Of a stretch of DNA of 36,327 bases, positions 3,720-36,327 are shown in pieces (position 1 is the stretch's first letter; the number at the start of each line of letters is the position of its first letter). The notes under the pieces were generated by a model. That model saw only the letters and a program-made list of their open reading frames with translations, was not told the origin of the DNA and ran no database searches. The stretch spans positions 1 through 36,327 of IMG/VR virus record IMGVR_UViG_3300029309_000122. One strand, 5' to 3'. The translations under genes were made by a program, and so were the position numbers. The DNA is from a virus.

Positions 3720-4988
3720 CTAAAAAACGCGGTAATCATTCATTGCTGTTTGCTGCATAGGCGCAAATTGACGTTTATCCTCGCGTAATCCTATAGCGCT
3801 GTAGCGAAAAGCATCCGCTGAGTGCGATGACCAGTCGTGTTTTATTGTTGTCGAAAAGGATCGTGTGCGCTCGTTATACACACGATGATACTGTCGTAAT
3901 GCCTCTAGGCCGTGTTTGCAGTTATCCCGGTCAAACCAGGCGCGCTCGATAAGCAGCTGCGCTGCGTGTATGCCATCATCAATAGGGAGTTTTGGCACAA
4001 CCCTAAAATTTATTCCTAGATCCCAGGCAACCTCACGTCTGCTTTTGCCGGATCCTAACTCTCTTACTTCTATATCGTGCGGTGCATAGTGACTATCATA
4101 GAGATACTCACGTTCTTGCAGCACTCGAGCATAGTGCGGTAATCCCTCGCCTCTTGCCTCATAATAATCAATGTAATGTACGGCCCGGCCTACGACCTGG
4201 ACAAACCAAATCGCTGTGCTATCGCCGACCCCCAAATCCCAAAACGTGTCCACACGAACACTGGAATCATAAGGTACTTTTGATATGCGCCCATCCTGGA
4301 ACGCTTTTTGTAGCTCTTTTCCAAAGATAGATCCGGGTACGTTAGCAACCCAGGAACATTCGTATTCCTGGTTATACTGATCCTCCGACATGCCGATCCG
4401 CGCCGACTCCAGTTCGGTATCTGGTAATATCCCGGTTTTACTCGCTGGGTACGTGGCAGCGAACCAATCCTTAGATGCGGTGGCCGCCTCGTATAGTTCG
4501 AAAAAGGCATTGTGTCCTCTCGGTGTACCAATGAATAAAGCTTTTCCCTCACGATCCGATAAGGCTGGTCGTATGACTTCCGGAAATAAGTTCTCCGGCA
4601 TATCCGCCATTTCGTCCAAACACGCCATATCAAGGTATATTCCACGCAGACTTGCCGGATTTTCGGAACCAAGCAGCTGTATTCTTGCACCATTCGGCAG
4701 ATCGCAGCGCAGTTCTGTTTCGTGAAAACGCGCCATCGGTATGTTGACTGCGAACTGTTTTAGATAATCCCAGGCAACTTGTTTGGCCTGGCGATAGGTT
4801 GGCGCTATATAGGCATATCGTGGGTTTGGTTTGGCGCATAAGATAGCCTCACGCAACAAATGATTAATCGCCATCACTGTCTTGCCGGCTCTCCGGTGCA
4901 TCACCACTACCGCCCATCGATGTTTGTCTAGCTGATCGTGTAGTTCCTTTTGCACTGTGCGCGGTGCGTATGGGATTTTTATTTCCAT
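3720..4988 (-). CDS. terL: Terminase large subunit (DNA-packaging ATPase and nuclease)
   Basis: This protein drives DNA into the prohead and cuts the concatemer. With the chosen ATG at 4988 it has 422 residues. The ATPase domain shows a Walker A variant H-R-R-A-G-K-T (residues 31-37) and Walker B with catalytic Glu in I-Y-L-D-M-A-C-L-D-E (117-126), followed by the coupling motif G-T-P-R-G. The RNase H-like nuclease begins with F-W-D-L-G-V-G-D-S near residue 245 and ends with H-S-A-D-A-F-R-Y. An upstream in-frame ATG (5060) would add 24 Cys-rich residues unlike the family, so I prefer the internal start, which has GAGAG at a fair distance. Its likely partner is the small terminase at 6385. Confidence 0.95.
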   Translation of the reverse strand: MEIKIPYAPRTVQKELHDQLDKHRWAVVVMHRRAGKTVMAINHLLREAILCAKPNPRYAYIAPTYRQAKQVAWDYLKQFAVNIPMARFHETELRCDLPNGARIQLLGSENPASLRGIYLDMACLDEMADMPENLFPEVIRPALSDREGKALFIGTPRGHNAFFELYEAATASKDWFAATYPASKTGILPDTELESARIGMSEDQYNQEYECSWVANVPGSIFGKELQKAFQDGRISKVPYDSSVRVDTFWDLGVGDSTAIWFVQVVGRAVHYIDYYEARGEGLPHYARVLQEREYLYDSHYAPHDIEVRELGSGKSRREVAWDLGINFRVVPKLPIDDGIHAAQLLIERAWFDRDNCKHGLEALRQYHRVYNERTRSFSTTIKHDWSSHSADAFRYSAIGLREDKRQFAPMQQTAMNDYRVF

Positions 4989-5142
4989 ATTTATACTCTC
5001 GCCGCAACTGCCGCAGCATGAAATCTCTATGCAGCCGCTTTCTCTCTTCGTTCTTGGCAAAGAACGCAGCTTTTTTTTGAAATAGCGTGTCGTCTATGCT
5101 TTTTTCTTCATCTTCGATGAAACAATCTTTTTCTGTAGATCT

Positions 5143-5439: not shown

Positions 5440-5614
5440 TGCGATCAACAATCGTCTTTAATTTAGGCTTGCAATACGCGCTGTATGGACTGCCAGTGCC
5501 TTTCTTGTTGATTAAGGACATATGCCAGCTGCAATCTTGATAGTTGCCTATCTCGGCCTCTTCCATCACTTCTGATCCCTTTAATATAACCAGGATAAAC
5601 ACTACAGTTTTCAT
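5432..5614 (-). CDS. Small protein with hydrophobic N-terminus (60 residues)
   Basis: Unrecognised protein starting MKTVVFILVILKGSE, so residues 3-11 form a short hydrophobic stretch. The middle holds a C-S-W-H-M-S-L-I-N-K-K-G-T-G block. It starts at an ATG that overlaps the previous gene's TGA (ATGA at 5611-5614) and ends overlapping the DUF3310 start, so it is embedded in a coupled operon. The hydrophobic part is short for a transmembrane helix, so a signal peptide or a soluble fold are both possible. Confidence 0.7.
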   Translation of the reverse strand: MKTVVFILVILKGSEVMEEAEIGNYQDCSWHMSLINKKGTGSPYSAYCKPKLKTIVDRNG

Positions 5615-6147
5615 TGACGGCCTATAAATTCTGTTTGCTTTGTCTGCATGTACTTGGTGAATAAATACCAGCACACATTGTCTTTACCGGTGTGTTTGCT
5701 ATCCGGGATCCACTTGACACGACCCACAGACACTATCAACCGGCAATAGGTTATTAACTCTCTCGCTTGCTTAGTGTGCATCCAGTCGGCATCAAAAAGC
5801 AGCCATGTAGGTTTAAGCGACATGAAATACTCGATCATAGGATGCAGTAAATCACGTCGCCAGGGAGGGTTCGTAATTATAGCGTCAGCCTCTAATATCT
5901 TCATCTCGTCTAACTCCAGCGCATCATGCTGAAGTATATCGGATCTACGCGGCTCTATATCGCTCTTGTAGCAGCACATAAGGCCGGCTAGCTCCAACAT
6001 ATCAATTAACTGTCCATCGCCAGCACACGGCTCGCAAAACAGCTTTACATCCGCATTATCCAGGTGCAGCAGCAATGGTTTGATAGCTGACGGAGGTGTC
6101 GGATAGAAATCTCTCGGTATCCGGTCAAATTCACTACGTTTACCCAT
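5611..6147 (-). CDS. DNA N6-adenine methyltransferase-like protein
   Basis: This 178-residue protein looks like a class I SAM-dependent methyltransferase of the Dam-like phage type. Residues 13-20 (DFYPTPPS) open the fold, C-E-P-C-A-G-D-G-Q-L (38-47) is the SAM-binding motif I, and N-P-P-W (93-96) is the catalytic motif IV for exocyclic amino methylation. Such phage enzymes often mask their DNA from host restriction. No target-recognition domain is obvious at this length. A Shine-Dalgarno GAGGA lies 5 bases before the ATG. It is the first gene after the 6148-6384 spacer. Confidence 0.75.
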   Translation of the reverse strand: MGKRSEFDRIPRDFYPTPPSAIKPLLLHLDNADVKLFCEPCAGDGQLIDMLELAGLMCCYKSDIEPRRSDILQHDALELDEMKILEADAIITNPPWRRDLLHPMIEYFMSLKPTWLLFDADWMHTKQARELITYCRLIVSVGRVKWIPDSKHTGKDNVCWYLFTKYMQTKQTEFIGRQ

Positions 6148-6384
6148 GTAGTCCTCATTGTGAATGTCTGTGTCCGGATTGGGTTATATATGTGTATACA
6201 GCGCGCGGTGTGGTCGCCGGGGGTAGGGTCAGCCGGTATATGCTCAGATATGCAGCGTAACAGCCACCATCCCCCACGCTTTCCAATAAAATAACTACGA
6301 TCGCAGCATGTTATCCAAATGTTATCCAATCGTTGCTGACTCGCGCGTGCGAATGAACGCAGTGTCAGTATGGCCTAACGGAAA
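6148..6384. other. Intergenic spacer between the small terminase and the methyltransferase genes
   Basis: No convincing gene is seen on either strand here. One open minus frame (6045-6329) has an unnatural Cys/Trp/His-rich product and overlaps the methyltransferase. The notable content is a tandem 11-base repeat at 6309-6330 identical to the attP arm repeats (listed separately), plus a GC-rich patch near 6210-6230. It may hold a promoter for the gene set running from the methyltransferase to the scaffold, but no clear -35/-10 pair was found. Confidence 0.5.
6309..6330 (-). repeat. Inverted extra copy of the attP arm-type tandem repeat
   Basis: Read on the minus strand these bases are two adjacent copies of TTTGGATAACA (the first with A in place of the leading T). 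The same pair occurs at 15170-15191 and 15364-15385 on either side of the attP core. A match this long 9 kb from attP is unlikely by chance and points to a common DNA-binding protein, integrase or a small regulator. Confidence 0.85.
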
Positions 6385-6801
6385 TTACCCAGCTTTGATA
6401 TCAACATCGCCTTTCTCCCAGGACAATGTAATCGTGCCGCTCATCCCTGGTGCTGCCATATCCTCGGACTTATTCCGTATGCCCTTTGGCTGCAACTGTG
6501 TGTGCCGTTTCTGCAATGTATCTACCTTCAAGCGTCGCATCTGTACCTCTGCCATCATATGCTTTGGATCCACTGGTAAAGGTTTGTTGAGCACCTCGTC
6601 GATCTCTTCCTGGATGCGCTCTCCCTGGATAGCTTTTGCTTTGGTATACATCTCATGCGCGTCGTCATTCTTCTGAATGTATCGATACACTGTATCATCG
6701 CTTGGAAATCCATCGATCTTTGCAATCTCGCGCATTGATTTGCCGCTGAGTAAATGATCGCAGATCTTCTCCATTAATTCTATGTTCATAAGCCGTGACA
6801 T
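6385..6801 (-). CDS. Terminase small subunit candidate (Sf6 gp1-like)
   Basis: With the ATG at 6801 (behind AGGTGG, 5 bases away) the protein has 138 residues. The N-terminal part holds a helix-turn-helix: S-M-R-E-I-A-K-I-D-G-F-P-S-D-D-T-V-Y-R-Y-I, the pattern of Sf6-type small terminases that recognise the packaging site and form a ring. A helical segment rich in Glu/Lys/Arg follows (residues ~60-105), then a probable beta C-terminus that would contact the large subunit. The gene is separated from terL by three genes, which is unusual but seen in podoviruses. An upstream in-frame ATG would add 8 residues without a ribosome site. Confidence 0.75.
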   Translation of the reverse strand: MSRLMNIELMEKICDHLLSGKSMREIAKIDGFPSDDTVYRYIQKNDDAHEMYTKAKAIQGERIQEEIDEVLNKPLPVDPKHMMAEVQMRRLKVDTLQKRHTQLQPKGIRNKSEDMAAPGMSGTITLSWEKGDVDIKAG

Positions 6802-6920
6802 TGATCCACCTAATTGACCAGGCATAAACCGGTGGAGCGGCTTACACCTGGCAAAATATCAGAAAGTGATATGAAAAAACTAATCGCCTACATCTATTGT
6901 CTTGGCAGACACATGACACA

Positions 6921-7560: not shown

Positions 7561-8394
7561 TTATCCAACACAATCGCCGTCATCCGCCTGGCAAAAATAA
7601 CCTTGCTGATCGAACACCCAATCGCTTTGTTTACTTACATAATTTTTAAGATTAGTTAGCGGCCGTTCTTTATTAAAAAAGCCATAATCACCCCGACTAG
7701 CGTATTCTTGTTCCTTGTTTTCCCACCATGCGTATCGTTGCGGATGTTCTCTTAACAGCATGACTTGATGTGCCTCTGACTTTAGAAAACATCCATCACA
7801 ATTTCCGTACATTGTCTTTCCGTTAATAACCGGCAGCTGTAATGAAAAATCTTGTTGTGACCAAAAGGCATCAATCGTTTTTTTTGTAACCTTTGCCGGA
7901 ACGAGCGGCCTCCAGGGAGTTATAATATTATCTATTTTTTTGTCTTTAAGTCTATGTGGTTCGTCGGCTCTTATACCAACAGCGTTGTGCCATTTTTTCC
8001 AGCCGAGGCTTTTTAAATATCGTTTGCTGGTGTGAATTTTAAGTTCTACTGTGCAAAACCGAATAAGAGCGTGTGGCAATATTCGCTTGTGCTTTATCAG
8101 CTGGTCAAATGGTTCTCCGTTACGACTGGCGCTATTGTGGTTTACTACTTGCACTCCTGGCTTTTCCTTGTAGAAATACTCCAGCCAGGTAATCGGAACA
8201 TTCCATTTTTCTGCACACTTTTGCACAAAATCATACGTCTGCGGCATCTCTCTGCCGGTGTTTTGAAACAATACCTTTGCTCTTTCTGGTATGCCGTTGT
8301 TTGCCTGGATGATTTCATGCAATAAATATGCAGACGTGCGGCCACCAGAAAAAGATATACTTACATTTCCATCCGGCAGCACGTAAGGGTTCAT
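7561..8394 (-). CDS. PAPS-reductase-family (PP-loop) protein
   Basis: With the ATG at 8394 (overlapping the upstream stop as ATGA) the product has 277 residues. It shows the adenine-nucleotide PP-loop S-F-S-G-G-R-T-S (residues 14-21), the family's F-Q-N-T-G-R-E-M-P motif after strand two, and R-x-C-T-x-x-L-K near the middle. Cysteines in N-C-D-G-C and a C-terminal C-x6-C could bind metal or an Fe-S cluster. Relatives include PAPS reductases and DndC-like DNA sulfur-modification proteins. Substrate cannot be told from sequence; many marine phages carry such genes, perhaps for sulfur metabolism or nucleic-acid modification. No other Dnd-type gene is present. Confidence 0.8.
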   Translation of the reverse strand: MNPYVLPDGNVSISFSGGRTSAYLLHEIIQANNGIPERAKVLFQNTGREMPQTYDFVQKCAEKWNVPITWLEYFYKEKPGVQVVNHNSASRNGEPFDQLIKHKRILPHALIRFCTVELKIHTSKRYLKSLGWKKWHNAVGIRADEPHRLKDKKIDNIITPWRPLVPAKVTKKTIDAFWSQQDFSLQLPVINGKTMYGNCDGCFLKSEAHQVMLLREHPQRYAWWENKEQEYASRGDYGFFNKERPLTNLKNYVSKQSDWVFDQQGYFCQADDGDCVG

Positions 8395-8507
8395 CGCATA
8401 AATACTTTTTTGCATTTAAGTAAAAAGCGCTGCCAAACGCTGCTATTGTGCCAGGCTAACAGCTGACCAAATCTACCGGTAAAATGCTTATCGATATTAC
8501 TTGTCAT
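8391..8507 (-). CDS. Possible small basic protein (38 residues)
   Basis: This short ORF starts MTSNIDKHFTGRFGQLLAWH. Its ATG lies inside the end of the upstream 71-residue gene, and its TGA overlaps the start of the PP-loop gene as ATGA. These overlaps fill what would otherwise be an 80-base gap and fit the operon's coupled style. There is no recognised family and the size makes it tentative. Confidence 0.5.
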   Translation of the reverse strand: MTSNIDKHFTGRFGQLLAWHNSSVWQRFLLKCKKVFMR

Positions 8508-8712
8508 ATCTTGTATCGCAACCAGATAGCCAATTAAAGGTTTCGTATTTTACGCGGATAATATCGTCAGCAATAGTATCGACGACATGTTTCTCCGTAT
8601 AACAATTTTTAGAATACTTGGGCGGAATGTCATGCAAATCCGCGATTTGCAGCAGCGTGTATCCCTGGTTAATTTTATAGTTAATGTAGTCTTTTGCTTC
8701 TTCATGCTCCAT
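8497..8712 (-). CDS. Small protein with HTH-like helix (71 residues)
   Basis: Starts MEHEEAKDYINYKINQGYTL behind a strong AAGGAGGAA ribosome site. Residues 18-30 (YTLLQIADLHDIP) resemble the first helices of a helix-turn-helix with a leucine/isoleucine core, but the recognition helix is not clear. It overlaps the end of the VRR-NUC gene by 11 bases. It may be a regulator or a small early protein of unknown role. Confidence 0.65.
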   Translation of the reverse strand: MEHEEAKDYINYKINQGYTLLQIADLHDIPPKYSKNCYTEKHVVDTIADDIIRVKYETFNWLSGCDTRYDK

Positions 8713-11995: not shown

Positions 11996-12397
11996 ATGGA
12001 AAAAATTAAGATGGGCGGATCAAAGCCGCACTTTGGAAACAATCAATTTAGATTAGGCGGCGGATTGAAAAAAGATCACGACTATCAATGTGCTGGCTGG
12101 TTGCAGTTTCGTACCGGTAAAGGTGAAGATGGCCGGCAGCTGCCGCAGACGAACGAGCAACGCGCTGCTATCCAGGAGGCTTATCAAACACTGCTTGACC
12201 TGGCAATGAAATACGGCAATGGACAGTTGCAGCTAGGACTAAGCATAAAAGAAAAAGGAGAACCCGGCGGAGTATGGCCGGTGCTCGAGCGGCCCCTACT
12301 CTTCCTGGATATTCCGCAAGATCTACGACAAAACTATTCTAGACCTAACTTCGGTGATGATGATGACAGTAGTGAAACTGACCGCCCACAATTCTAA
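11996..12397 (+). CDS. SSB-like protein with acidic C-terminal tail
   Basis: Unrecognised 133-residue protein directly after the annealing protein. The body is rich in Gly and aromatic residues with beta-like segments. The end is G-D-D-D-D-S-S-E-T-D-R-P-Q-F, an acidic tail closing on Phe, as in bacterial and phage single-strand-binding proteins that recruit partners through such a tip. Together with its place in an exonuclease-annealase operon this suggests a single-strand DNA-binding protein. I do not see a canonical SSB sequence motif, so the function is inferred. Confidence 0.5.
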   Translation: MEKIKMGGSKPHFGNNQFRLGGGLKKDHDYQCAGWLQFRTGKGEDGRQLPQTNEQRAAIQEAYQTLLDLAMKYGNGQLQLGLSIKEKGEPGGVWPVLERPLLFLDIPQDLRQNYSRPNFGDDDDSSETDRPQF

Positions 12398-12575
12398 GGG
12401 ATTGTATACGCTATCAGAGGCTGGCAAGCTGCTGTTTCCAGGATTATCAGAGGCAGCTAGTTATCAGCGACTCCGGCGGATCCTGGCGCATGGTGACTAC
12501 GAGATCCACAAAAGCGGCCGCACCAGCTATATTGCTAGCCATGTCCTCGAGCGATTAGGCGCTAAGATTAACTAA
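12354..12575 (+). CDS. Small excisionase/AlpA-like winged-helix protein
   Basis: At most 73 residues, overlapping the end of the SSB-like gene by 44 bases. The start is uncertain: GTG at 12354 followed by three ATG codons. The recognisable part begins at Y-T-L-S-E-A-G-K-L-L-F (residues 18-28), followed by Q-R-L-R-R-I-L-A-H-G-D-Y-E-I and G-R-T-S-Y-I, the pattern of MerR-type HTH_17 excisionase-like domains. It could be the Xis that directs the integrase toward excision, or a transcription regulator. Xis proteins often lie apart from int, as here. Confidence 0.6.
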   Translation: MMMMTVVKLTAHNSKGLYTLSEAGKLLFPGLSEAASYQRLRRILAHGDYEIHKSGRTSYIASHVLERLGAKIN

Positions 12576-13656: not shown

Positions 13657-14884
13657 AGTAACGCAGCGCTGCTTGATCTTCTCTTGCAGTTTCTTCCGGA
13701 TCCTCTGCGTAATCCTCTAGCCAATGGCCGTATGTTTTTGTTGTGGTGACAGTGTTGCTGTGGCCCAGGTTGTTCGACACTTTCCAGATCCCATCCTTTG
13801 TGCCGCCTTTTAAGGCCAGCTGAGCGGAGGCATAGTAATGCCTTAGTTCGTGCCAGGTAATACGAGCAACACCGGCTGCAGCGGCTGCTTTGGCCAGCTT
13901 CTTGATGAACATCGAGGGATGTATTGTTAGACCGCGTGTGTCTTGCCAAATAAGATCCTCTTTCGGCGGCTTGCCCTGGCGCATGTATTCCTCTTGCAGC
14001 GCCTTTACAACTACCGGCGGAAACCGCAATCGCCTGGTTGACTTTACTGTTTTTGGTTCCGCAACATTTCTATATCTATCGATACCTTTGTTGACCGCGA
14101 CGGATCGCAAATCAAAATCAACGTCGCTCCAGGTCAGTGCTCTCTGTTCTCCCTGGCGCAATCCGGTTTGTGCTGCAAAGAAAGCAGCAAGTCGCCAGTT
14201 ACATTTTGTATAACCATGCAGCTGATTGCTATTGCCGGTCGGCAGCTGCTCAAGGATCCGCTCGACAACATCGCGTTGCACTCTGTCGATCTTATCTTTC
14301 CTGGCAGATTTTTTTCCGCCATTTTTCGGCCGGGTTTCCCGGAACATATTGTGATCGGCATATCCAGTCTTAACGCAGTACGATCCGAAATCAGTGTAGC
14401 TGGCCCAATAATTTTTTACAGTTTTATGCACTCGATTTTTTGTAGTTGCCGGAGTTATGATTGTGAATACAGTAGTCGGATCTCCAAAAAATTCTGCCGC
14501 AGTTTTATCGCCAACAGTTTGATTATTTATTTTGATGTTGAGAAGAAAGTTTATATCGCGCATCGAGTTTTCGAAACTATGCTCTCTGATAGTTCCGTTT
14601 GCCACGTCGTCAATCCTAGATTTTTTGTAGCAACAAATCTCACCGGTCGTCTTGCATTTCTCACACTCAAAAATGTTTCTGACTTTTTTTTCTGCGCGGC
14701 CGGACGAATACAATCTAAGATTGCTTGCAATCTCTTCAGCGTATTTAATAGCCTCTTGTTTTGTGTAGAAAAATTTTCTTTTGTGATTGTGTTTTCTGCC
14801 GTCAACGCACCAGGGTCTTTTACTTCGTGATGCCTTGTAATCGTACTGGCGAACAAGATTATTTACTAGCTCTGTATTTAACAT
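13655..14884 (-). CDS. int: Tyrosine-type phage integrase
   Basis: At 409 residues this matches phage tyrosine recombinases. The catalytic set is visible: Arg in T-G-L-R-Q-G-E (near residue 243), H-E-L-R-H-Y (near 345), L-G-H-S and the nucleophile Tyr in T-K-T-Y-G-H-W (near 384). The N-terminus (residues 1-60, basic, K-R-P-W-x-V-D-G-R) should bind arm sites. A cysteine cluster E-C-E-K-C-x6-C-C near 73-86 may form a small zinc-binding insertion. It catalyses recombination between the attP region just upstream and a host tRNA locus. The ribosome site is the GGGGGG run ahead of the ATG. Confidence 0.95.
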   Translation of the reverse strand: MLNTELVNNLVRQYDYKASRSKRPWCVDGRKHNHKRKFFYTKQEAIKYAEEIASNLRLYSSGRAEKKVRNIFECEKCKTTGEICCYKKSRIDDVANGTIREHSFENSMRDINFLLNIKINNQTVGDKTAAEFFGDPTTVFTIITPATTKNRVHKTVKNYWASYTDFGSYCVKTGYADHNMFRETRPKNGGKKSARKDKIDRVQRDVVERILEQLPTGNSNQLHGYTKCNWRLAAFFAAQTGLRQGEQRALTWSDVDFDLRSVAVNKGIDRYRNVAEPKTVKSTRRLRFPPVVVKALQEEYMRQGKPPKEDLIWQDTRGLTIHPSMFIKKLAKAAAAAGVARITWHELRHYYASAQLALKGGTKDGIWKVSNNLGHSNTVTTTKTYGHWLEDYAEDPEETAREDQAALRY

Positions 14885-14893
14885 TGCACCCCC

Positions 14894-15088
14894 CTATAAA
14901 TATATAGAGGGGTCAGTATCGACACACTGATTGATACCGCGCCGGATCAATTCAAGCTGCGCTTGTGACAATACTATTTTTTGATTCTTGTTTGTATGCA
15001 CGATCATGCTTGTTGTATTTGTTGTCAGATCGTACAGCTGCTTTAGTTGTTGCGATTTCTCACCGCTGCTCTCAATAACTTTTTCCAT
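14894..15088 (-). CDS. Small protein directly upstream of integrase
   Basis: Start chosen at the ATG 15086-15088 because a perfect GGAGG lies 6 bases before it; a GTG/ATG further upstream would not have one. The 64-residue product begins MEKVIESSGEKSQQLKQLYD and has no recognised fold. It ends 9 bases before the integrase ATG, so the two are co-transcribed, and it lies between attP and int where a regulator of integration or an excisionase could be encoded. Confidence 0.65.
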   Translation of the reverse strand: MEKVIESSGEKSQQLKQLYDLTTNTTSMIVHTNKNQKIVLSQAQLELIRRGINQCVDTDPSIYL

Positions 15089-15169
15089 ATTGAACCTCCA
15101 CATTCTTTTAGGAAACTTGATTGTAATTGCATTGATAATGACTCAATGAATCAAGATTGTAAAGTAATG

Positions 15170-15191
15170 TTTGGATAACATTTGGATAACA
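15170..15191 (+). repeat. Left arm-type tandem repeat of attP (TTTGGATAACA x2)
   Basis: Two head-to-tail exact copies of TTTGGATAACA, with a third degenerate unit (ATTGGCTAACA, 15192-15202). The same pair occurs on the other side of the core at 15364-15385 and inverted at 6309-6330. Tandem direct repeats flanking the core are typical integrase arm sites. Confidence 0.85.
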
Positions 15192-15235
15192 ATTGGCTAA
15201 CAAATAGCTAAGTTATTGTAATATATGGAAAGTTT

Positions 15236-15258
15236 TGGTGCGGGTGATAGGACTTGAA
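15236..15258 (-). other. attP core identical to a tRNA 3' end (probably tRNA-Leu)
   Basis: On the minus strand this segment reads from a T-loop (TTCAAGT) through a 3' T-stem strand (CCTAT) and an acceptor strand (CACCCGC) to ACCA. That is exactly the layout of a bacterial tRNA 3' end. The matching acceptor 5' strand would be GCGGGTG, common for tRNA-Leu. The tRNA resemblance stops upstream of the T-loop, so it is a fragment, as expected of an attP core that rebuilds the host tRNA on integration. Confidence 0.8.
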
Positions 15259-15281
15259 AATTCTCGCCAAGCGATATTTGG

Positions 15282-15348
15282 TGATAATATATGATATTTA
15301 ATGATAATTAATGATAATAAAAGTGATTCCAATTATCATATATTATCA
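15282..15348. repeat. Long AT-rich inverted repeat in attP
   Basis: Perfect 14-bp arms TGATAATATATGAT (15282-15295) and ATCATATATTATCA (15335-15348) with further ATGATAAT units between them. Could bind IHF or an excisionase, or act as a weak hairpin end for leftward transcripts. It has no T-tract suited to a strong terminator. Confidence 0.7.
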
Positions 15349-15363
15349 TTTGTTATCATCTAT

Positions 15364-15385
15364 TTTGGATAACATTTGGATAACA
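15364..15385 (+). repeat. Right arm-type tandem repeat of attP (TTTGGATAACA x2)
   Basis: Two exact tandem copies of the same 11-mer found at 15170-15191, in the same orientation, on the other side of the tRNA-like core. They abut the stop codon of the lysozyme gene. Confidence 0.85.
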
Positions 15386-34027: not shown

Positions 34028-35087
34028 TTATTCGTTACAAGCTATTTCAACGACCATTTCTTCTTGCATCCGGGATGCACCAAAGGTCGAGCAATAGTAG
34101 ATTTGTGTTGAATAGGATTTGTCTGGTCGAGGATCGATCTTCGCCGTCACGTCCTTACCAAGAGCCATTACTACACCCTCACGCGCATACGCATAGCATA
34201 GTCGTGATGTACCATCGTCTTTTAAACGATTGGATGTAATAAATTTAAATCCCATGAATGAATCAACAGTTCCGTTTACTAGCGCCTTTCGTACCATCTA
34301 CGGCTTTCGCCGCCGCTTTTGCGTTTGTGGTCTGGACTTTATCTTTACCCACAACTGAATGTTTGGGTATCCCCTGTCAAGTCTCTACACCTTCCTATTA
34401 CTAGGCTTGGCTCGGTATTACCATTTTAAAGGCTTCACCGAATTTAAGGGAGTTTCGTCTAAGTGTTTCCACTTAGATAGGCAAAGTGTTTACCGAGTTA
34501 AAATCCGCTGACGTTACTGAAGTTGTGTTGAGTAGATCCTCGATCTGCTCGGGAGATACAACGATATATCTCTCGATTGAGGGATCAACACTGTTTTGAT
34601 CCATTATCTTTTTAGCACTAATAAGCTTAGCGATTGTCAAACCGGCACTACCATGCGCGATTTTCTGACCACTAGGCAACGCTGTGCTAGTTCCACCGGA
34701 CACACCAGTTTTAGCTGTACCGCCTAAAGCACCAATGATTTCATCATCCATTGCTCTGCCGATAGCTGCCGCCGCTGCTTTGCCGTATGTTGACTCCGGA
34801 GAGATAAGCATACGAATTTTGTCCTGGTCATCGACGAGATCCGCATATTCATAGTCGGACATCGTGACCATTCGCCTAGCGTGGGGGGTATCCATAATCG
34901 GAGTGCTGGCATGCCTCGACGCTCTCTTCTGCGCCACTGCCGAACCGATTTGCTCGAAAAAGGCTTTTTCGCCGTTCACAGTTTCTTGTCGTACAGTGTT
35001 TCGCATTAATGAACCCATTTGCTGCGATAATAACTGTATGTTCTGAGAAAACTGATTAACGAAAGCCGTAGTGATTTGTGTACTCAT
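34028..35087 (-). CDS. Major capsid protein, split by a group I intron (exons 35087-34492 and 34289-34028)
   Basis: Exon 1 (596 bases, ATG at 35087 behind GGAGG) codes the N-terminal 198 residues plus two bases of codon 199. Exon 2 (262 bases) supplies the rest. Joined, they give 858 bases, 285 residues plus stop. The joint reads A-D-F-N-S-V-K-A-L-V-N-G-T-V-D-S-F-M-G-F-K, the expected conserved capsid segment. Without splicing, translation would stop after 204 residues with a wrong tail (N-T-L-P-I). The fold is presumably HK97-type as for other podoviral capsids of this size. It is the building block of the head, with the scaffold gene just upstream. Confidence 0.9.
34290..34491 (-). ncRNA. 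Group I self-splicing intron (202 nt) within the major capsid gene
   Basis: Intron positions are counted 5' to 3' on the minus strand. P1 pairs exon GGU plus intron 1-3 with 7-12 and places the U-G wobble at the 5' splice site. P10 pairs exon 2 AAAG with intron 6-9. P2 (15-22/27-34) has a GAAA loop; P4 is 51-55/76-80, P5 is 59-61/70-72, P6 plus P6a end in a GUAA loop, P7 is GACU (109-112)/AGUC (154-157), P8 is 124-131/137-145, and two hairpins form P9 (one with GAAA). The conserved P, Q, R and S elements are all present. The last intron base is G. It has no ORF, so no homing endonuclease. Confidence 0.93.
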
Positions 35088-35181: not shown

Positions 35182-36003
35182 TTACCCCTCTAGTTCTGGA
35201 TATAGCTGCTCGTTAAGTTGCAGAACACGCTGTACGTAGGTTTCATGCTCTGGATGTTGACTACTCCAATAAGGTGAACCGGCAACCATCAACTCGCGTT
35301 TTTCTTTCTCGAGTTCTGCCGGTGTACTAATCTGCTCGCTTGTAGGGCCGCCCAGGGCATCTTCGCTTATCTGGTCAGCTAAAGCGGCAAACATTCTTAT
35401 AATCTGTGGGTTATCGCCCAGCAATGTTCCGTCGGCAAGCTCGATATCTTCCATTATATCGTCACTGCCTAACAGACTTACAACTGCCGATCTTGCTCTC
35501 TCGAGCTTTTGCGGCATTGCGTTGCCCCACTCTTGTTCGAGTTCTGCACGATTTTCGTTTACTATTTGCTGTGCAGTATACTCGTTTTGTGATTGCGCCT
35601 GTGTAAAGGTATCGTTTAGAAAATCGACAACCTTGCTAGCCTGGCCGCTGCTTAATCCATTAGCCAGCGCTGTTTCCTTAAATGCGCTTTGTTCTTCATC
35701 CGTGAATAAATCCGGAAAACTTATTTCGTATCCCGATACATCCGCCGGTGATCCAAGCTTACGATAGACTTCTAGCCGCTCTTCATCGGTGGCATGCTTG
35801 CCAGGAATTGCTATTTTATCCGCTCCTATCATGCGCTGCGCGTGCATATAGGATTTTGCCAGGCCGTTAACATCCTGAAAATTTGCAAATATAGGGTTGC
35901 CTCTAAACTCGTCGCCTAATGTATCGGCAAAAGCGACCGGTGTTTCTTGTGCTACTGTTTCTTGAGATTGAGATTCCTCAATTACCTCTGCTGTTTCATT
36001 CAC
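35182..36003 (-). CDS. Capsid scaffolding protein, complete copy
   Basis: This 273-residue acidic protein lies between the Bbp19-like and capsid genes, the usual scaffold position. The N-terminus is Glu/Gln-rich, followed by G-K-H-A-T-D-E-E-R-L-E-V-Y-R-K-L-G-S-P (about 69-87), a motif I associate with scaffold proteins of T7-like marine phages (G-x-P-x-x-x-x-GY). A long helical middle with N-E-Y-T-A-Q-Q-I-V-N-E-N follows, and a short C-terminal part that should contact the coat. It starts at GTG (36001-36003), coupled to the upstream gene by an 8-base overlap. Confidence 0.85.
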   Translation of the reverse strand: MNETAEVIEESQSQETVAQETPVAFADTLGDEFRGNPIFANFQDVNGLAKSYMHAQRMIGADKIAIPGKHATDEERLEVYRKLGSPADVSGYEISFPDLFTDEEQSAFKETALANGLSSGQASKVVDFLNDTFTQAQSQNEYTAQQIVNENRAELEQEWGNAMPQKLERARSAVVSLLGSDDIMEDIELADGTLLGDNPQIIRMFAALADQISEDALGGPTSEQISTPAELEKEKRELMVAGSPYWSSQHPEHETYVQRVLQLNEQLYPELEG

Positions 36004-36214
36004 TGTTAAGATCCTTTCTTTCTTCTAACATTCGTAAAATTATAAGCATCGCGTTGCGCTGCCCCTCAAAGAACGCACTTTCGTGGGGATCCCCCGGAAC
36101 ATGCGTGCTTTTGTATAGACCAAACCTTTTTTTAAGGTCGTCTAATACTTGTGCGCCATCATCTGTCGTAAACACGGCGCGATATATACGTTGTAAATCC
36201 TCTAACTCCATCAT
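35996..36214 (-). CDS. Bbp19-family small phage protein (right copy)
   Basis: Variant of the gene at 693-911, 72 residues, changed only at residues 4 (Leu for Ile) and 49 (Phe for Tyr). It is fully open, with the same overlaps to portal and scaffold, confirming that both variants are functional. The two conservative changes against many silent ones indicate purifying selection. Function as for the left copy: unknown, in the head module. Confidence 0.8.
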   Translation of the reverse strand: MMELEDLQRIYRAVFTTDDGAQVLDDLKKRFGLYKSTHVPGDPHESAFFEGQRNAMLIILRMLEERKDLNSE

Positions 36215-36327
36215 TCAGCCTGGCCTTGCGCGGCTTGCAAAGCTGATACGAGCGGCGCTACGTTACGCGCTTGCTCAGAGTTTTGCATTTCTTGCTGCGC
36301 TTCTTGTTGTGCAGCGGCTGCCTCTTG
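36211..36327 (-). CDS. Portal protein, right copy, C-terminal end only (cut by window edge)
   Basis: Only the last 38 codons are present. They encode the Gln/Glu/Ala-rich tail ending V-S-A-L-Q-A-A-Q-G-Q-A-E. The left copy lacks the A-A-Q insertion. It belongs to the related genome variant that supplied the right end of the window. Confidence 0.85.
   Translation of the reverse strand, partial: QEAAAAQQEAQQEMQNSEQARNVAPLVSALQAAQGQAE

Follow-up and report, generated by a model that had tools for sequence, protein, structure and literature searches.

A third, remote arm-type site, probably for the phage's own integrase, beside the packaging genes of marine temperate phages

The usual picture of a phage integrase is of a recombinase bound at att whose only further role, if any, is to regulate the gene that encodes it. 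Integrases of the lambda type bridge the DNA of arms and core, and Int of Tn916 reportedly binds the transfer origin oriT. IntS of prophage KplE1 represses its own gene (PMC2951348), and the excisionases Apl of phage 186 and Cox of P2-type phages have dual roles (PMC7498355). Such dual-role recombination proteins are the nearest precedents for the locus described here, which belongs to a family of marine temperate phages that keep a third copy of the attP arm word beside their packaging genes. In the literature searched, mostly outside subscription journals, we found no description of a phage integrase with an arm-type site at a distance from att.

The window, meaning the whole 36,327-nucleotide stretch analyzed here, covers positions 1 to 36,327 of IMG/VR record IMGVR_UViG_3300029309_000122. 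Its ends (1–1023 and 35304–36327) repeat each other at about 95–97% identity, so the record represents one phage genome of about 35.3 kb, circular or permuted, whose two end copies vary in sequence. The initial annotation had reported a 21-base inverted match between the attP arms and a distant spacer, and this was borne out exactly: 6309–6329 matches both arms, at 15171–15191 and 15365–15385 (Table 1). TTTGGATAACA occurs without mismatch at 15170, 15181, 15364, and 15375 on the plus strand and at 6309 on the minus strand, the copy at 6320 (minus strand) being ATTGGATAACA, one mismatch from the arm word. Elsewhere in the record, the 21-mer recurs at up to three mismatches only as a degenerate overlap at 15182. 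An unsupervised scan for tandem 9-mers (period 11–12) common to separate places returned just three places in the window, and the same type of scan returned none in 30 Markov resamples of it. The separation from attP, originally put at 9 kb, is approximately right and becomes 8.8–9.0 kb; the spacer does lie ahead of the methyltransferase gene, with the refinement that it spans 6148–6384 and has the small terminase gene on its other side; and a protein counted as 64 residues has 69 in its longest reading, 64 being the length from an inner ATG.

Table 1. Positions of the features discussed in the window, with the basis for each
Feature	Position	Strand	Basis or remark
Large terminase subunit	3720..5060	-	PF03237, PHROG 2
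DNA methyltransferase gene, directly downstream of spacer	5611..6147	-	PHROG 799 E=4e-33
Conserved spacer holding the remote site, small terminase gene to methyltransferase gene	6148..6384	-	Flanks 90-99% identical among relatives with different words
GACCCTACCCCC box, putative late-promoter or packaging element	6219..6230	-	92-96 bp from unit 2 start in 19 contigs
Remote site unit 2, TTTGGATAACA	6309..6319	-	Read towards methyltransferase gene; exact arm-word copy
Remote site unit 1, ATTGGATAACA	6320..6330	-	One mismatch to arm word; other tandem word at same place in relatives
Small terminase subunit, Sf6-type	6385..6825	-	PF20901 E=1.5e-19
Probable excisionase, 73-aa winged-helix-like protein	12354..12575	+	Recognition helix tracks second repeat set
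Tyrosine integrase, 409 aa	13655..14884	-	Pfam PF00589 E=1.7e-14, PHROG 1
Integrase residues 15-42, variable part of arm-binding domain	14759..14842	-	Tracks word
69-aa ORF (64 aa from inner ATG) between attP and int	14894..15103	-	100% identical between phages with different words
Promoter-like TTTACA-17-CATTAT, reading to 69-aa ORF and int	15135..15163	-	Consensus scan only
Integrase-proximal attP arm, tandem arm-type pair	15170..15191	+	Sequence match
Degenerate third arm unit beside integrase-proximal pair	15192-15202	+	
attP core, identical to tRNA 3' end (TTCAAGTCCTATCACCCGCACCA)	15236..15258	-	tRNA reading from sequence pattern
Second repeat set, ATGATAAT-type units phased at about 10 bp, probable excisionase sites	15278..15360	.	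Word changes with excisionase recognition helix
Endolysin-proximal attP arm, tandem arm-type pair	15364..15385	+	Sequence match

The window resembles lambda in its Int and attP, with an arm-binding domain, tandem arm pairs on both sides of the core and probable excisionase sites on one side. A Foldseek search with the integrase model matched lambda Int and Tn1549 Int, and the catalytic residues R243, H345–R348, H375, and Y385 are invariant in the alignment. The N-terminus is predicted at moderate confidence to comprise strands at residues 11–13, 25–27, and 37–39 and a helix at 42–60; three strands and a helix are the topology of the arm-binding domain (PMC8138268). The protein thus fits the arm-binding-domain tyrosine integrases of the lambda/Tn916 type, its reading of DNA being suggested by the covariation described below. 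The promoter-like site lies 7 bp from the integrase-proximal arm pair and is of the TTGACA type in relatives. The probable excisionase gave no PHROG match.

Comparison with the precedents brings out what is particular to this locus. KplE1 IntS is likewise a tyrosine integrase, regulating transcription from its own recombination region, and the adjacency of the window's integrase-proximal arm to the promoter-like site of int would recall such autoregulated integrases; IntS, however, regulates int itself and binds attL, whereas the site considered here is a separate one 9 kb off at the packaging/late genes. With Apl and Cox, a recombination protein likewise has one set of sites at att and another in a control region, in direct repeats one helical turn apart, but they are excisionases acting on early lytic/lysogenic promoters, while the present site follows the integrase and lies at packaging/late genes. 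Besides its att arms, Tn916 Int is reported to bind a DNA-processing site far from them, although Tn916 is a conjugative element without phage packaging.

Related loci were gathered from viral contigs as 19 stretches with the small terminase and nine with the integrase, with more added through alignments and patterns, and six full genomes were compared, the window and G001–G005. The nearest named phages by large terminase are Pelagibacter podoviruses. In Greip EXVC021P, HTVC203P, and Skadi this protein is about 55% identical and the late genes come in a similar order, but these phages differ in having no annotated integrase and no tandem word common to two places; the same scan found none in HTVC203P, Skadi-4, and Greip, which lack an integrase. 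In the region equivalent to int, integrase-less Pelagibacter relatives have a gene for a DnaA C-terminal domain (L088 7554–8087, L089 21925–22437, L090 29919–30440). A tandem TAAGGCAT pair stands in the spacer upstream of the terminase in HTVC203P and Skadi (L088 34899–34917, L089 30299–30317); it was rejected as a counterpart of the remote site, having no second place in either genome. A DNA search of named phages with the int–attP region gave no match, and alignments of the integrase and small terminase confirmed no integrated prophage or host in GTDB genomes. Among the full genomes, a group I intron (34320–34501, Rfam RF00028) divides the major capsid gene of the window (34028–35087); the gene is split in the same way in G001 and is uninterrupted in G003, G004, and G005. 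A PAPS-reductase-family gene (7561–8415 in the window) is also present in G001 and was not found in G002–G005.

The remote word is the genome's own attP arm word in all six full genomes, which together use four words: TTGGATAAC (window and G001), TTGTGCCAA (G002), TTGTGCTTR (G003 and G005), and TTGTGGCAA (G004). Each spacer's longest exact stretch in common with its own attP is 12–22 bp, against no more than 11 bp when full genomes that differ in word are compared. When attPs were shuffled among the six, all classes matched in 4 of 720 arrangements, a simple count over genomes that are not fully independent. The unsupervised scan recovered the two arms and the remote site in every full genome, the only extras being the duplicated contig end of G001 and one pair in G004. 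Lambda and Sf6, scanned as controls, had no tandem word common with the terminase region, a comparison of limited sensitivity because lambda's own arms fall below the scan threshold. The initial annotation had proposed checking whether related phages conserve the repeat at the same spots, and a site is present there in 6/6 full genomes and 19 spacers; the refuting case that it named, relatives with arms but without the 6.3-kb copy, was looked for and not found among the full genomes.

Aligned spacers are nearly identical except at the site itself, where each group has its own tandem 11–12-bp word within 22 bp (TTTGGATAACA, TTGCGGTGATA, TTGTGGCCCGA, TTGTGGCAATC, TTGCGACCGA, TTGTGCCAATC, TTGTGACCCA, or TTGTGCTTGA). 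In the window's clade, mean pairwise identity is 36% for the word core versus 90% and 99% for the flanks; conversely, two clades with different flanks carry the word TTGTGGCAA identically. For four word classes, remote and arm words lie on one and the same contig. The other two are joined across contigs and are therefore weaker. In the first, gene order is changed in L025 and L049, with the methyltransferase before the small terminase and an integrase about 40% identical to the window's; the remote word is TTGGCACTGA in L025 and L044 and a tandem TTGGCACTGA with TTGGCACCGA in one unit in L049, and L043 has TTGGCACGGA arms beside an integrase 100% identical to that of the L025 class. In the second, L050 and L051 (small terminase 47% identical, spacer region lacking the methyltransferase) have TTGCAACCCAAATTGCAACCCA upstream of the large terminase, and the attP arms of L076, from the same metagenome as L051, match this remote site exactly over 22 bp, beside an Int 25% identical to the window's. 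A single contig joining L050/L051 with the L076 class was sought and not found.

The word also follows the arm-binding domain. The integrases of L030 and L035 are 99% identical outside residues 15–42 and 52% identical inside, and their words differ; those of L034 and L023 are 67% identical outside and 86% inside, and their word is the same. A partial Mantel test of word against residues 15–42 gave 1 of 5000 permutations. The exceptions are L031 and L032, which have the same arm-binding domain and partly discordant arm words, the arms of L031 also differing from each other; these may be chimeric contigs or natural mosaics. This natural covariation of the word with the arms and the arm-binding domain identifies 6309–6330 as very probably a third, remote arm-type site of the phage's own Int, read through the N-terminal arm-binding domain, and integrase binding at the head/packaging operon is on the same sequence comparisons strongly supported.

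A second conserved element accompanies the site. The distance from the start of unit 2 to CCTACCCCC, which occurs once in the window, is 92–96 bp in 19/19 contigs, L050 and L051 included, and holds across small terminases down to 47% identity. In the contigs, the CCTACCCCC box is followed by a TATATA-like stretch (TATATAA at about 6185–6191 after the GACCCTACCCCC box in the window) and then by the first gene, and it stands upstream of the methyltransferase or the large terminase gene, depending on the phage. Its simplest reading is as a putative late promoter or packaging element; a sigma-70 scan of the spacer found no promoter.

We consider the best explanation of the whole, with a probability of roughly 0.5, to be that a remote Int site lies in a control element ahead of the packaging/late genes and restrains that unit. 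The element would run from the remote site through about 93 bp to GACCCTACCCCC, TATATAA, and the first gene. Abundant Int, whether at lysogeny establishment or from late read-through through attP into int, would hold down the terminase and head genes, and the late/packaging unit would fire when Int is low or engaged at attP. That bound Int restrains the unit is the step we would put at slightly under an even chance, and the remote site would be some 140–165 bp ahead of the presumed start, a long way for simple repression. In the circular genome int shares a strand with the late genes and lies past attP, at their far end. Read-through of late transcription could therefore return Int to the place where the unit begins, a loop that integration at attP would break. 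A changed arm-binding specificity would need to be matched at all three places, which would explain the concerted change of words. In this way binding might link lysogeny to late transcription, as the initial annotation had supposed.

The main rival to late-unit restraint is a block on the initiation of packaging, for which we see a minor but real chance. Int binding would block or time the start of packaging, the spacer with its GC-rich box being pac or cos, and Int about 93 bp off would keep terminase away until it is recruited to attP or excision is done; an integrated prophage would thereby not be packaged in place. Packaging in situ is a genuine danger when excision comes late, as P22 illustrates (PMC8575938). 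The site does lie between the small terminase and the remaining packaging genes and stays with the CCTACCCCC box rather than with one gene, and GC-rich GCGCG blocks stand on either side of the element; contig starts of full genomes, however, are scattered relative to the box. An Sf6-type small terminase would point to headful packaging and a pac inside the terminase gene, which would also argue against a pac in the spacer. The reported binding of oriT, a comparable DNA-processing site, by Tn916 Int would favor a packaging role, but Greip has the box upstream of its terminase gene without an Int site.

It is less likely that the remote pair is an architectural third arm, which by looping to the attP core and arms would tune integration or excision. 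The bridging of arm and core DNA by lambda-type Int lends this some plausibility, as do the inverted orientation relative to the arms and the 8–10 kb spacing to attP, both kept in 6/6 full genomes. That spacing nevertheless varies by about 2 kb, whereas the CCTACCCCC box stays at a distance from the pair that changes by no more than 4 bp, and the spacer has no core-type sequence, the attP core pattern being found at a single place in the record.

We also think it improbable that a protein other than Int, with the same changing specificity, binds all three places. Covariation points to a shared reader without naming it, and a 71-aa ORF (8497–8712) is variable too, at 55% identity to G002 and 85% to G001. 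Against this, the arm-binding domain of Int differs, along with the word, between integrases that are 99% identical elsewhere, and the other candidates do not track the word. The CI-like repressor was rejected as the reader since it is 67% identical to a same-word and a different-word genome alike, and the Cro-like protein since it is 97–99% identical to both kinds. The initial annotation had named the integrase or a small regulator as the binding protein: the integrase stands, the word covarying with the arms and the arm-binding domain, and the 64/69-residue protein falls, for its 100% identity between genomes with different words excludes it as the specificity factor.

The excisionase was likewise rejected as the reader of the remote site, because the window and L010 have the same arm word and different excisionase helices and second repeats; in this comparison, the excisionase is not the reader of the sites away from attP, as a dual-purpose excisionase of the Apl/Cox type would be. 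Together with the phased attP repeats it probably makes up another matched pair, one that changes specificity without following the integrase word, ..YQRLRRIL occurring with ATGATAAT, ..YHRLRRIL with ATGCAAAT, ..YMKLRRIL with TGTTATT, and ..YMRFRRIV with ACGTAAAACT.

Finally, it is very improbable that the remote pair is left over from a former attachment site or arose as a side effect of repeats recombining or being copied, and the earlier suggestion of a relic or recombination hot spot is contradicted, since, despite identical 21–22-bp stretches in some genomes, a sharp 22-bp replacement inside a conserved spacer is seen in every word class, renewed with each integrase specificity at a fixed place and distance from a conserved element, no core sequence lies there, and remote and arm copies within a genome have the 9-bp core in common and differ at their edges, which argues against plain copying.

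A distant copy that follows the integrase's word suggests that the enzyme that inserts these phages may also control the genes that make virus. If this is true, the integrase would be a regulator of packaging or late genes and would open a direct route to studying how excision and virion production are coordinated in temperate phages. Somewhat more tentatively, the integrase could act as a checkpoint, directly gating packaging or late expression through the co-evolving remote site: one and the same protein would then create, undo, and sense the physical state of the genome, be it integrated, excised, or circular. The genomes are in effect a natural set of matched pairs, in which the arm-binding domain goes with the 9-bp word and the excisionase helix with the phased repeat; the recognition code of each protein could be worked out from them.
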